A stretch of 20,714 bases of DNA from a virus: the IMG/VR virus record IMGVR_UViG_3300020469_002533, positions 1-20,714 of that record. One strand, written 5' to 3'. Position numbers and translations under genes: made by a program. The notes below the pieces were generated by a model. The model had not been told where the DNA came from. It saw only the letters and a program-made list of their open reading frames with translations, and did no database searches. Below, piece after piece: positions 2,429 to 20,453 of this stretch. The stretch's first letter is position 1. The number at the start of each line of letters is the position of its first letter.

Positions 2429-3514
2429 ATGAAAATAGCATTATTAAACGATACCCACTTTGGGGCTCGTAATGATAGTAGTATATTTGATGAATACTTT
2501 TATAAGTTTTATGATGATATATTCTTTCCTTACTTAAAAAAACATAATATAAAAACACTTATTCATTTAGGTGATATTGTTGATAGAAGAAAGTATATTA
2601 ATTATAGAATTGCTCATAACTTTAGACATAGATTTATGCAAAGATTATGGCAAGAAAAAATTGATACTCACATACTCATAGGTAATCATGATATCTATTA
2701 TCGTAATACGAATAAAGTAAACGCTGTTCAAGAGTTATGTACAGCGCCTGATGGTGTAAACGAACCATTTATTTACGAAGAGCCTAAAGTTGTAGAGTTT
2801 GATGGTTTAAATATTTTAATGATGCCTTGGATCAATCCAGAAAACGAAGCACAATGTTTAGAAATGTTAAACAAAGCAAATGCTGAAATCTGTATGGGTC
2901 ATTTTGATTTAAATGGATTTAGAATGATGGATCACATGGTACAGACACACGGTTACGATAAGTCTATTGTATCAAGATTTGAAAAAACTTATAGTGGACA
3001 TTTTCATCATAAAAATGGTGATGGTCAAGTATTGTATCTAGGCAGTCAATATGAAATGACTTGGTCTGATTATAATAACGAAAAGGGGTTTCACATATTT
3101 GATACTGAAACTAGAGAAATAGAGTTTATTAAAAATCCACATACTATATTTAAAAAACTAATCTATGATGATACTGAAACCAATTATGATAAGTTTGATA
3201 TTACAGAATACAATCAAAAATTTATTAAGTTAGTTGTTGTTAATAAAAAAGATAATCAAATGTTTGATAGATTACTTGATAGACTATACAATAAAATAAG
3301 TGTACACGAATTAAAAATACTAGAAGATTATTCTGACCTTAATCATACCAATGTAAGTGATGATGTGGTAGAAGGATCTGAAGATACAATTACGCTAGTT
3401 AATAGTTATGTAGATCAATTGCCAGTTGATTTAGATAAAGATAAATTAAAAATAATGATTAAAGAAATGTTTATTGAGGCACAAGATAGTGATGTAAAAG
3501 ATGATAATATTTAA
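2429..3514 (+). CDS. 47: gp47-like Mre11-type recombination nuclease subunit
   Basis: Calcineurin-like phosphoesterase subunit of the gp46/gp47 (Rad50/Mre11) complex, which resects DNA ends for recombination-dependent replication and host DNA breakdown. 361 aa, close to T4 gp47. Metal-binding motifs appear in order: D8-T-H10, G48-D49-IVDRR, G85-N-H-D88, G157-H-F, and G190-H-F-H193. The C-terminal third is the capping/Rad50-binding part and ends in an acidic stretch. The start follows the gp55 stop by one base, with no strong Shine-Dalgarno. The 3' end overlaps gp46 by 14 bases, implying translational coupling of the two subunits. Confidence 0.95.
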   Translation: MKIALLNDTHFGARNDSSIFDEYFYKFYDDIFFPYLKKHNIKTLIHLGDIVDRRKYINYRIAHNFRHRFMQRLWQEKIDTHILIGNHDIYYRNTNKVNAVQELCTAPDGVNEPFIYEEPKVVEFDGLNILMMPWINPENEAQCLEMLNKANAEICMGHFDLNGFRMMDHMVQTHGYDKSIVSRFEKTYSGHFHHKNGDGQVLYLGSQYEMTWSDYNNEKGFHIFDTETREIEFIKNPHTIFKKLIYDDTETNYDKFDITEYNQKFIKLVVVNKKDNQMFDRLLDRLYNKISVHELKILEDYSDLNHTNVSDDVVEGSEDTITLVNSYVDQLPVDLDKDKLKIMIKEMFIEAQDSDVKDDNI

Positions 3515-17993: not shown

Positions 17994-18347
17994 ATGAAAA
18001 AACAAAAACCAAAAATGTATATTAAGGGATTACCAGAATCAGTTAAGATTGGATATGTTGACTATCAATTTGATTTTTGGCCTGACACATTTGCAAGTAC
18101 CGAAGAAGCTCAAGGTGAGTTCTTTCAATCACAAGGTAAGATTGGATTAAAAGAGTCCACTCTAGATAGTATTCATGGTGTGAATACAGTTTTACATGAG
18201 ATTATGCATGGTATAATTTATCAGTATGGATTAGTTGAAACACTAGGTGAGAAAGAAGAAGTAACAGTTAATACAATAACAAATGGTCTAACAACTGTAT
18301 TTAAAGATAATCCATGGTTGGTTGACTACATAAAGAAGCACATATGA
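17994..18347 (+). CDS. Small HEXXH metallopeptidase-like protein
   Basis: 117 aa. The motif TVLHEIMHGI (H68-E69-x-x-H72) is a zinc-protease signature; an acidic helix follows with EKEEVTVNTITNGL, where a Glu could be the third ligand, as in SprT/ImmA-like minimal proteases. The N-terminal part is a small beta-rich section (VKIGYVDYQFDFWP...GKIGLKES). Similar small HEIMH proteins are found in marine phages, function unknown to me. The ATG has no Shine-Dalgarno and sits at the predicted transcription start. Its TGA overlaps the ATG of the S21 gene (ATGA), so both are translated from one message. Confidence 0.6.
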   Translation: MKKQKPKMYIKGLPESVKIGYVDYQFDFWPDTFASTEEAQGEFFQSQGKIGLKESTLDSIHGVNTVLHEIMHGIIYQYGLVETLGEKEEVTVNTITNGLTTVFKDNPWLVDYIKKHI

Positions 18348-18553
18348 CAATAGAAGTAAATGTAAGAAATAACAATGTCGAAAAGGCTATGAGAGTTTTG
18401 AAAAAGAAACTACTTAAAGATGGTTTGATGAGAGAATTAAAAGATAGACAGTATTATTCTAAACCCTCTGCTTTAAAAAGAGAAGCAAAGAAACAGGCAG
18501 TTAGAAGATACAAAAAAGATCAAAGATTGAAAGCCCTAAGCGAGGGCTTCTAA
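18344..18553 (+). CDS. rpsU: Ribosomal protein bS21 homolog encoded by the virus
   Basis: 69 aa small-subunit protein S21. The N-terminal MTIEVNVRNNNVEKAMRVLK and the arginine/lysine-rich helix (RELKDRQYYSKPSALKREAK, then RYKK) match S21 along the whole length. S21 sits near the anti-Shine-Dalgarno end of 16S rRNA and takes part in initiation; S21 is the ribosomal protein most often carried by aquatic viruses, including pelagiphages. It is translated from the same message as the small metallopeptidase through an ATGA overlap. It may replace host S21 on ribosomes and bias initiation toward viral messages (inference), which is notable given the many starts here without a Shine-Dalgarno. Confidence 0.93.
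   Translation: MTIEVNVRNNNVEKAMRVLKKKLLKDGLMRELKDRQYYSKPSALKREAKKQAVRRYKKDQRLKALSEGF
18531..18549 (+). terminator. Hairpin at the end of the S21 gene
   Basis: AAGCCCT-AAGCG-AGGGCTT is a perfect 7-bp stem with a 5-nt loop lying within the last codons of S21. The bases after it (CTAAAAGAATT) are A-rich, without a U-run, so termination is uncertain; it could also protect the 3' end. Confidence 0.4.
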
Positions 18554-18637: not shown

Positions 18638-18955
18638 ATGGGTAGAAAAGCCTTATCAAAAAAAACAAAAGTACTAAACTTATTATCAAAAGGAAAAGCA
18701 GTTGCTTGGACTACATTGAGAAATAAGTTTGATTTAACATCACCAAGAGCGATGGTAGATCAACTAAGAACTGAAGGACATATGGTGTACATTAATCAAA
18801 CATCAAATGGTACTTCGTATCGTTTAGGTACACCTACTAAAGCAATTTTAGCTGCAGGCGTTCAAAAAGTACTAAAAGGTAGTACTAACGAAATCGTTGC
18901 TGCTGGTATCAGAGCTTTATACGGTACACAAAAATACGCTTACTCTAATCAGTAA
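18638..18955 (+). CDS. Small winged-helix DNA-binding-type protein
   Basis: 105 aa, with a good Shine-Dalgarno AAGGAG (18622-18627) about 10 bases before the ATG. Residues 8-65 read as a winged helix: TKVLNLLSKGKAVAWTTLR (helices 1-2), NKFDLTSPRAMVDQLRTEG (recognition helix region), then a wing HMVYINQTSNGTSYRLG. The C-terminal third (PTKAILAAGVQKVLKG and on) is helical. Possible phage transcription regulator or DNA-bound structural protein; related small winged-helix proteins are common in marine T4-like phages. It is the last gene before the first late promoter. An 84-base gap separates it from S21, with TTGATA at 18563 but no convincing -10. Confidence 0.6.
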   Translation: MGRKALSKKTKVLNLLSKGKAVAWTTLRNKFDLTSPRAMVDQLRTEGHMVYINQTSNGTSYRLGTPTKAILAAGVQKVLKGSTNEIVAAGIRALYGTQKYAYSNQ

Positions 18956-18968
18956 GACTATTTTATCG

Positions 18969-18976
18969 TATAAATA
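18969..18976 (+). promoter_or_regulatory. T4-type late promoter, exact TATAAATA
   Basis: TATAAATA, identical to the T4 late -10 consensus read by gp55, which is encoded in this window. With the T4 placement (-13 to -6) transcription starts near 18982, at the 5' end of the structured stretch and with no long gene downstream before the second late promoter. Confidence 0.8.
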
Positions 18977-18981
18977 GTAAT

Positions 18982-19164
18982 GTCTAGGCAGTTCGTAAGT
19001 CCTGACATTAGAGGTAGAGTGTCTTCCGCAAAGACACTATTTTGGGTTTCGCCGTTCCCTTAAAAAACGGCGTTTACATTGGTCCATTGGTCTTCGAGGT
19101 TATGAGAGCCGTAAATCTTTAGGATTAAGAGAGGGTGAGACCTACCTCCACCAATAATTTTTTT
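18982..19164 (+). ncRNA. Candidate late structured non-coding RNA
   Basis: A 310-base stretch (18956-19265) holds no convincing gene but is rich in stems and lies between a late promoter and a U7 run (19158-19164). Seen: TAATGTC/GACATTA (18978-18984 with 19004-19010, plus AGG/CCT inside); AGTGTCTT/AAGACACT (19018-19025 with 19031-19038, loop CCGCA); CGCCGTT/AACGGCG (19050-19056 with 19066-19072); TTTAC/GTAAA (19073-19077 with 19111-19115). A long-range helix GAGGTAG/CTACCTC (19011-19017 with 19142-19148) closes the others into a multi-branched structure. GGG 19044-19046 could pair with CCC 19057-19059 in the third loop, an H-type pseudoknot. An 8-base tandem repeat CATTGGTC lies at 19077-19092. 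It ends in CACCA but does not fit tRNA or tmRNA. Family unknown to me. Confidence 0.6.
19086..19164 (+). terminator. Probable terminator of the late RNA, alternative to its closing helix
   Basis: ATTGGT (19086-19091) pairs with ACCAAT (19150-19155), and GAGGT (19096-19100) with ACCTC (19144-19148), forming a two-part stem directly followed by T7. The ACCTC arm is also used by the long-range helix with 19011-19017, so the two folds exclude each other. The long inner loop makes this an unusual terminator. Confidence 0.4.
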
Positions 19165-19195: not shown

Positions 19196-19203
19196 TATAA
19201 ATA
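19196..19203 (+). promoter_or_regulatory. T4-type late promoter of hsp20, exact TATAAATA
   Basis: Second exact TATAAATA, predicted +1 about 19209, giving a 57-base leader for the small heat-shock gene. Places hsp20 in the late, gp55/gp45-dependent class. Confidence 0.8.
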
Positions 19204-19207
19204 ATTG

Positions 19208-19232
19208 TGATACGCTCAATTAAGAGGTATCA
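19208..19232 (+). promoter_or_regulatory. 5'-terminal hairpin of the hsp20 message
   Basis: TGATAC (19208-19213), a bulged G, CTC, loop AATTAA, GAG, then GTATCA (19227-19232): a 9-bp stem with one bulge lying exactly at the predicted 5' end of the late transcript. Such end hairpins can shield mRNA from 5'-end-dependent decay; a thermosensor role is conceivable but the start region itself is not paired. Confidence 0.5.
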
Positions 19233-19265
19233 TTTAGATTAACTTGCTTATAAAAGGAGAAAACA

Positions 19266-19691
19266 ATGACAAGACTATCTATATGGAACGATTTGCGTCC
19301 ATTTTCAGTAGGTTTTGATGACCTATTCGACCACTTTAATAACACATTAGAGTACACGGTTAAACAACCAACATCATACCCACCTTATAACATCAACAAA
19401 GTAGATGATTTAAATTATCAAATTGAAATGGCACTTGCTGGTTTCAGTAAAAAAGATATTGAAATCAAAACTGCTGATGGTCAATTGACAATTAAGTCAG
19501 TTGAGAATGATGATAAGGATGAAAAAGAAACTTTACATAGAGGTATTTCAAAAAGAAAATTTAGTAGAACATTTACTTTGGCTGAAGATATCAAAGTTAA
19601 TGGTGCTGAATTGAAAGATGGAATGCTTTTAATTGAGTTAGAGAAAATCGTACCAGAGGAAAAGAAACCTCGTACAATTGACATCAAGTAA
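19266..19691 (+). CDS. hsp20: Small heat-shock protein, IbpA/Hsp20 family
   Basis: 141 aa ATP-independent holdase chaperone. The alpha-crystallin domain spans about residues 38-130: YPPYNINKVDDLNYQIEMAL, AGFSKKDIEI, LHRGISKRKFSRTFTLAEDI, and the conserved GAELKDGMLLIELE end (A-x-x-x-x-G-x-L motif). The N-terminal FDDLFDHF is the usual short aggregation-binding segment, and VPEEKKPRTIDI is the C-terminal tail with an I-x-I that docks to neighbouring dimers. Shine-Dalgarno AAAAGGAGA lies 6-12 bases before the ATG. Hsp20 genes are near-universal in T4-like cyanophages and are thought to help virion assembly or stabilise proteins in the late phase, consistent with the late promoter. Confidence 0.95.
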   Translation: MTRLSIWNDLRPFSVGFDDLFDHFNNTLEYTVKQPTSYPPYNINKVDDLNYQIEMALAGFSKKDIEIKTADGQLTIKSVENDDKDEKETLHRGISKRKFSRTFTLAEDIKVNGAELKDGMLLIELEKIVPEEKKPRTIDIK

Positions 19692-19778: not shown

Positions 19779-20453
19779 ATGAAATTAAATCAAAACACAC
19801 AAAACATTCTTAAAAACTTTTCTGAGATCAATACAAACATACTGATTAAACCAGGAAAACAATTAAACACAATTTCTACTATGAGAAATATATTTGCTAA
19901 GGCAGATATTGATGAATCATTTGATACTGAATTTGGTATCTATGACCTCAATGAGTTTCTTGCAGTAATGTCAGGTCTTAATAAACCTGAATTATCTTTA
20001 CAAGATAAATTTATGACTATTGCTTCAGATGGCAGTAAGTCAAAAGCAAAATACTTTTATTCTGATCCGTCAGTTCTAGTATCGCCAACTAAAGAAGTAA
20101 ATATGCCAGAGGCAGATGTTACTTTTAGTTTATCAGAATCACATCTTACAGAATTAAAAAAGATGGCTGCGATTTTGAAAACACCTGATCTTGCATTAGT
20201 AGGAACGAAAGGTGGTGATATCATATTAAAAGTATGTGATAAAAAGAATGATACATCTAATAACTTTGATATTGTTGTAGGCGAAGGTGCTACAGCAGAT
20301 TATACTTTCTATTTTAAAGTAGAAAATCTTAAAATGCTATCTGGTGATTATGATGTTTCAGTATCTTCAAAGTCTATATCTCATTTCAAAAACAAGAAAC
20401 TACCTATTGAATACTGGATTGCTCTTGAGCCAGACAGTACTATTACTAAGTAA
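19779..20453 (+). CDS. 45: gp45-like sliding clamp
   Basis: Trimeric DNA polymerase processivity clamp and, in T4-like phages, mobile activator of late transcription through gp55 and gp33. 224 aa against 228 in T4. MKLNQNTQNILKNFSEINT matches T4 MKLSKDTTALLKNFATINS; FGIYDLNEFLAVMSGL matches VAIYDLNGFLGILSLV; the end YWIALEPDSTITK matches YVVALEADSTHDF. Two clamp-fold domains span about 1-105 and 106-224. It has its own host-type promoter after the late hsp20 gene, and is followed 37 bases later by gp44, as in T4. Confidence 0.95.
   Translation: MKLNQNTQNILKNFSEINTNILIKPGKQLNTISTMRNIFAKADIDESFDTEFGIYDLNEFLAVMSGLNKPELSLQDKFMTIASDGSKSKAKYFYSDPSVLVSPTKEVNMPEADVTFSLSESHLTELKKMAAILKTPDLALVGTKGGDIILKVCDKKNDTSNNFDIVVGEGATADYTFYFKVENLKMLSGDYDVSVSSKSISHFKNKKLPIEYWIALEPDSTITK

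Follow-up and report, generated by a model that had tools for sequence, protein, structure and literature searches.

Locus Architecture and Late Promoters

The window, by which we mean the whole 20,714-nt stretch of DNA that was analyzed, is a 20.7-kb IMG/VR record of a T4-like marine phage. It carries a phage ribosomal protein S21 gene (18344-18553; Pfam PF01165, E 4e-15), a winged-helix gene (18638-18955), an hsp20 gene (19266-19691), and a gene at 19779-20453 that we take for the sliding clamp from its position and the annotation of Pelagibacter phage HTVC008M. The winged-helix protein has no Pfam match, and its AlphaFold model (pLDDT 70) returned weak MarR/ArsR-like matches only; the predicted structure gives no clue to RNA binding. 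The winged-helix and hsp20 genes are the 5′ and 3′ neighbors of the stretch considered here, in which an ORF scan found no + strand reading frame of at least 40 aa. A preliminary description of this DNA had likewise seen no convincing gene there and had placed a single structured RNA of about 180 nt between two T4-type late promoters.

Both promoter boxes are exact. On the + strand, TATAAATA occurs at 18969-18976, directly upstream of the RNA as is characteristic of a T4-type late promoter, and again at 19196-19203, where it separates hsp20 from the RNA. Transcription from T4-type late promoters starts about 6 nt downstream of the box and needs gp55, gp33, and gp45; the late box of marine relatives is NATAAATA. 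Whereas 20.4 copies of the core ATAAATA would be expected in the 20.7-kb window, there are only 4, two of which flank the RNA. Given this rarity, the phage seems to avoid the core except at used sites.

The hsp20 leader (19203-19265 in the window; 3436-3498 of the Melnitz-2 locus, L161) holds two conserved hairpins, in the second of which UUGCU or UCGCU pairs with the Shine-Dalgarno sequence AGGAG, as in a ROSE RNA thermometer. Rfam ROSE_3 scored 34.1 bits against Melnitz-2 (E 0.0015; gathering score 43) and 16.3 bits against the window.

RNA1 Is a Conserved Predicted RNA

We collected 75 IMG/VR loci by a search with the winged-helix protein. Behind the winged-helix gene, all 75 carry a conserved stretch of about 100 nt after the same late box. 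Comparison of these and more distant loci shows window positions 18977-19077 to encode a conserved structured RNA, here called RNA1, which consists of two hairpins, P1 and P2, followed by an H-type pseudoknot at its 3′ end. A covariance model (R1), built from type A members with types B and C left out, matched each of the 75 loci once, many of these being members or near copies of the model's own sequences. R1 also found one copy each in Pelagibacter phage HTVC008M (E 7.7e-8; KC465899.1, 91,772-91,868), Methylophilales phage Melnitz-2 (E 2.2e-5), and Pelagibacter phage Mosig (E 2.1e-4; MT647606.1, 9,702-9,898, minus strand), none of which was used in building it.

A DNA pattern combining the late box with the P1 loop added the diverged types A′ (P2 loop UUGCUAA), B (HTVC008M-like; P2 loop CUCUCGUAA), and C (Mosig-like). 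Every RNA1 member used has NATAAATAG upstream; the box is itself part of the pattern used to find the diverged types, whereas the 75 IMG/VR loci were found by protein. R1 had no match in five complete cyanophage genomes or, in a search run without a positive control, in 289 alphaproteobacterial genomes, and the exact type A core is absent from 84,980 bacterial and archaeal genomes. Three annotated hypothetical proteins, Mosig_00014 and Mosig_00015 (L162, 2413-2661) and Melnitz-2 gene 222 (L161, 3324-3428), overlap RNA1 or the second module described below and are probably spurious ORFs.

P1 spans 18978-19010 on the + strand, with pairs 18978-18984/19004-19010, 18986-18988/19001-19003, and C18989-G18999 and a bulged U19000; 7 of 9 pairs are compensatory over all types. 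Its 9-nt loop contains UCGUAA (18993-18998), which is invariant apart from one member with C for the first U. The apical pair, C13-G23, becomes U13-A23 in 6 of 48 members, always together, beside the bulged base. A GNRA-tetraloop reading of the loop (C-GUAA-G) is disfavored, as G23 pairs with C13 and changes with it. A likeness of UCGUAA to the 16S decoding site was dropped as a 6-mer match likely due to chance, and a tRNA-Arg anticodon complementarity was set aside as too short.

A joining segment, GAGGTAGA (19011-19018, +), follows; it is invariant in type A and missing in types B and C. P2 (19019-19037, +) pairs GTGTCT (19019-19024) with AGACAC (19032-19037) around the loop UCCGCAA and covaries through U-A/A-U/G-C and G-C/A-U exchanges. 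P3 (19050-19072, +) pairs CGCCGTT (19050-19056) with AACGGCG (19066-19072), forms the 3′ end of the conserved RNA, and has compensatory changes in 8 of 8 pairs over all types. Helix lengths among members are about 7-10 bp for P1, 6-8 bp for P2, and 7-9 bp for P3. YCGYAA-type loops cap P1 as well as P2 in types A and B (UUCGUAA and UCCGCAA in the window); the P2 loop lacks the motif in type C and Melnitz.

The pairing of GGG (19044-19046) with CCC (19057-19059) in the P3 loop, suspected in the preliminary description, represents, in the window, an H-type pseudoknot that is general at the 3′ end of RNA1 (19044-19059, +). Its strands vary together as GGG/CCC, GAG/CTC, AAGG/CCTT, CGG/CCG, AAGTCT/AGACTT, GTCAG/CTGAC, and AGCAG/CTGCT. 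Members scored 10.99 with their own partner strands versus a mean of 9.52 when partners were swapped, and none of 500 swaps scored as high; the margin is modest because many members share one type. At the pseudoknot, a U-rich joining strand lies beside a UUU/AAA stem; this strand is missing in type C. A second copy of the pseudoknot/P3 part alone (TGAGTTTTCGGTGGTTTCTCCCTTGTATAAAAACCACCA) occurs in Mosig (L162, 2670-2708), downstream of the second module.

In the type A alignment, 97.4% of cells are paired and 12 of 23 pairs are compensatory. Over all types, in an alignment that had been fitted to the structure model, the values are 95.6% and 20 of 23, compared to 36-48% of cells and 5-11 compensatory pairs in a slid-partner control. 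Because related sequences can mimic covariation, we ran a tree-based null in which type A columns were simulated independently along the tree (500 simulations). The observed summed covariation score was 80, versus a simulated mean of −219 and maximum of −132. G-U pairs are often tolerated (U-G in 16 of 43 members at one P1 pair), which points to RNA rather than DNA. The whole stretch folds with an energy z score of −2.36 (5 of 200 shuffles as good) and RNA1 alone with −2.57 (2 of 200). RNA1 combines conserved structure, covariation, and a lack of coding capacity, the features of a phage structured non-coding RNA.

An Optional Second Module, M2

Comparison also shows that 19078-19155 encodes a second, optional pseudoknotted RNA module, M2, separate from RNA1. 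Its closing helix pairs ATTGGT (19078-19083) with ACCAAT (19150-19155) on the + strand and reaches at least 4 bp in 50 of 50 distinct members. The terminal CACCA that had first suggested a tRNA-type end is the 3′ strand of this helix and varies with it; ARAGORN found no tRNA or tmRNA in the window. Inside lie a pseudoknot (19089-19142, +), in which GGTCT (19089-19093) pairs with AGACC (19138-19142) and GGUCU/AGACC changes coordinately to GGCCU/AGGCC, and a hairpin (19131-19148, +) of GAGG (19131-19134) with CCTC (19145-19148), whose loop holds the pseudoknot strand. Hairpin strands formed 5.34 bp with their own partners versus 2.92 when swapped (swapped maximum 3.46), and two of the pairs show four or five pair types with none broken. 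M2 alone has an unremarkable folding energy (z −0.25); single-sequence energy is uninformative here because the conserved fold is a pseudoknot. The middle of M2 is variable, with two hairpins and, in long forms, a GUAAGA hexaloop.

M2 is present in 24 of the 75 distinct type A loci and absent from 51. A covariance model (R2) that includes a near-identical copy of the window's M2 matched window 19076-19162 with E 1.3e-14, and a pattern search found M2 in at least 119 stretches of viral contigs, many copies being without RNA1 and beside other genes. Copies of M2 lie in L352 (2928-3044), L162 (2492-2578), L350 (707-789), L282, L274, and L259; it is a widespread phage RNA module, often beginning 5-16 nt after a stop codon. 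It occurs without RNA1 also in the unrelated SAR11 phages Kolga and Aegir (Pelagibacter siphophages). R2 matched once per genome in Mosig, Kolga, Aegir, and eight IMG/VR contigs and had no match in HTVC008M, Melnitz-2, or three cyanophages; its sole match among bacterial genomes is a 3.9-kb MAG contig of phage-like appearance.

A general linkage between M2 and S21 was rejected: a query with the window's S21 found the gene near 2 of 30 M2 loci without RNA1, although Kolga and Aegir have S21 nearby. On one viral contig (L263, 2251-2372), the Rfam Flavobacterium-1 RNA (E 3.4e-22) lies directly upstream of an M2 copy. L016, L018, and L019 have in place of M2 a simple hairpin, ATTGGTTTAATATTAGGG...CCTAATATTGAACCAAT, which lies about 130-190 nt past the stop codon of the winged-helix gene and is perhaps what remains of M2.

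The structured RNA behind a late promoter stands, as two modules rather than the one closed domain first drawn: about the first 100 nt are the conserved RNA, and the rest is an optional module found alone in other phages. Among the stems described at the outset, P1, P2, and P3 were confirmed. Homologous spacers, proposed earlier as the means of checking, preserve the RNA1 pairings with compensatory changes and do not preserve the long-range helix that was thought to close the whole.

A Stand-Alone Late RNA or a Part of Something Else

RNA1, together with M2 in the window, is probably a stand-alone structured late RNA gene, a reading to which we assign a probability of roughly 0.7. We infer its late transcription and independent action from the promoter and gene layout. 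Late transcription of the gp55/gp45 type would start at or just after TATAAATA (18969-18976), cross RNA1 and M2 to the U7 run at 19158-19164, and yield a single RNA of about 180 nt; in relatives that lack M2, the product would be about 100-120 nt long. The outermost P1 pairs covary even though a T4 late promoter would be expected to start transcription 1-4 nt farther downstream, which suggests that the RNA begins nearer 18978 than 18982. The 5′ end of RNA1 may thus differ from the expected start or come from processing. The U7 run (+) noted in the preliminary description is present after the M2 closing helix. The terminator scan does not allow for so long a loop and did not call it; from its location, transcription probably ends there.

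The reading that competes best, itself unlikely, is that RNA1 is a cis-acting 5′ leader, mRNA-stabilizing or ligand-sensing, of a late hsp20 or gp45 transcript. In most cases (48 of 60 loci), RNA1 does precede hsp20, and read-through is likely where P3 is followed by no U-run: the longest T-run within 15 nt after P3 averages about 3, and 6-7 T occur in only 9 of 69 members without M2. Transcription of many copies may therefore continue into the gene behind. Against a leader, the next gene usually has a promoter of its own, namely a late box between RNA1 and hsp20 in 86 of the 87 members with hsp20 next and a sigma-70-like promoter ahead of gp45 in 5 of 11 cases. The RNA also stays while the gene behind it changes from hsp20, the most frequent, to gp45 or other genes, and hsp20 has its separate ROSE-like leader after its own promoter. 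With its own late box and the promoters of the downstream genes, RNA1 is most likely a separate late RNA.

It is very improbable that the hairpins are terminators of the upstream winged-helix gene and that the conservation reflects terminators plus promoter. P2 with TTTT, and P3 with a U-run in some members, look terminator-like; most members, however, have no U-run after P3, and a terminator needs neither an invariant UCGUAA loop on P1, nor a covarying P1 right behind the promoter, nor a conserved pseudoknot. Still harder to credit is that the hairpins function as DNA, in a replication origin or in an element for recombination or packaging: RNA1 is present in one copy per genome, close to the replication genes gp45 and gp44, but its many tolerated G-U pairs and its fixed orientation directly behind a late promoter argue otherwise.

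We give almost no credence to one 180-nt RNA closed by GAGGTAG (19011-19017) and CTACCTC (19142-19148). These strands match perfectly over 7 bp in the window, as they do in 13 of the 24 M2-bearing type A loci. Yet CTACCTC was found near none of the 51 loci without M2, and the other 11 M2-bearing loci have CTACCAC in its place, which pairs with M2's own GTGG, with GAGGTAG unchanged. The helix is best explained as a chance consequence of two independent conserved motifs. A pairing between the joining segment and M2 across types was also rejected; Mosig can form it and L173 cannot.

Possible Function

A stand-alone RNA1 would act in trans. The YCGYAA loops of P1 and P2 (UUCGUAA and UCCGCAA) would be the most likely protein docking sites. 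Protection of the 3′ end would fall to the pseudoknot, whose U-rich joining strand lies by the UUU/AAA stem, and would let the RNA accumulate. Loops that recur, with few other single-stranded positions conserved among the types, point to a protein partner more readily than to an antisense target, and RNA1 probably binds protein.

As to the process served, late control of translation or RNA stability is our first guess, one that we hold tentatively. Translation is proposed because most relatives carry S21 just upstream (in 54 of 60 loci, on the same strand and no more than 1.5 kb away) and because other phages express their S21 genes late (PMC9723584). This proximity may reflect no more than the synteny of a single virus lineage. 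Next among the possible roles would come the sequestration of an RNA-binding protein, whether of the host or of the phage.

SAR11 phages that differ in virion type have M2 in common, and this suggests that they share a target in the host. A bolder proposal, decidedly speculative, is that RNA1 is the founding member of a class of late phage RNAs which, together with phage S21, remodel the host translation machinery and that M2 is a host-directed module common to unrelated SAR11 phages. SAR11 phages are among the most abundant ocean viruses. If the proposal were true, some of the most common ocean viruses would steer their streamlined hosts by RNA and not by protein. Since RNA1 lies behind a late promoter in three cultured phages, its function is testable in existing phage-host systems.

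Relation to Known Systems

No Rfam 15 family matched in the window at the gathering score. With the threshold relaxed to E 10 in the window, and to E 0.1 or 1 in relatives, RNA1 and M2 still had no match, in agreement with the first impression of an unrecognized family. The literature searched contains no description of RNA1 or M2. Riboswitch-type RNAs were sought but not found in a metagenomic survey of pelagimyophages, which was also unable to predict middle or late promoters (PMC7029224). The Melnitz paper reports tmRNA and glutamine riboswitches, and a term search of it returned nothing on the RNA1 locus (PMC9004378).

The closest comparison is with the manA and wcaG motifs, structured RNAs of marine T4-like cyanophages found by comparative genomics; they are described mainly as potential 5′ leaders, and manA also precedes ibpA (hsp20-type) chaperone genes (Weinberg 2010, PMC2864571). 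RNA1 is likewise a structured RNA of marine T4-like phages; unlike manA and wcaG, it has its own late promoter and a varying downstream gene. The Rfam models of manA (RF01745) and wcaG (RF01761) gave no match at the gathering score or at E up to 10. The ROSE-like element at 19203-19265 resembles the ROSE RNA thermometer (Rfam ROSE_3) and shares the intergenic region as the hsp20 leader, separate from RNA1 and M2.

T4 itself makes the stable RNAs C and D, which are small, have no assigned function, and are encoded in the tRNA cluster and not as late-promoter genes; RNA1 is like them an RNA of a T4-type phage and is set apart by this description. The pRNA of phi29 is a phage-encoded structured RNA that acts in trans. 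It serves here as a working analogy only, as it belongs to another phage family and has another architecture, and no RNA is known to serve T4-type motors. Telomerase RNA and viral ENE elements contain H-type pseudoknots with U-A-U triples, which the 3′ pseudoknot of RNA1 resembles in its U-rich joining strand beside a U/A stem; in RNA1 such triples are putative, and the U-rich strand is missing in type C. We file RNA1 as what would be a new RNA family, its newness being judged against Rfam, within a known kind, the phage structured non-coding RNAs.
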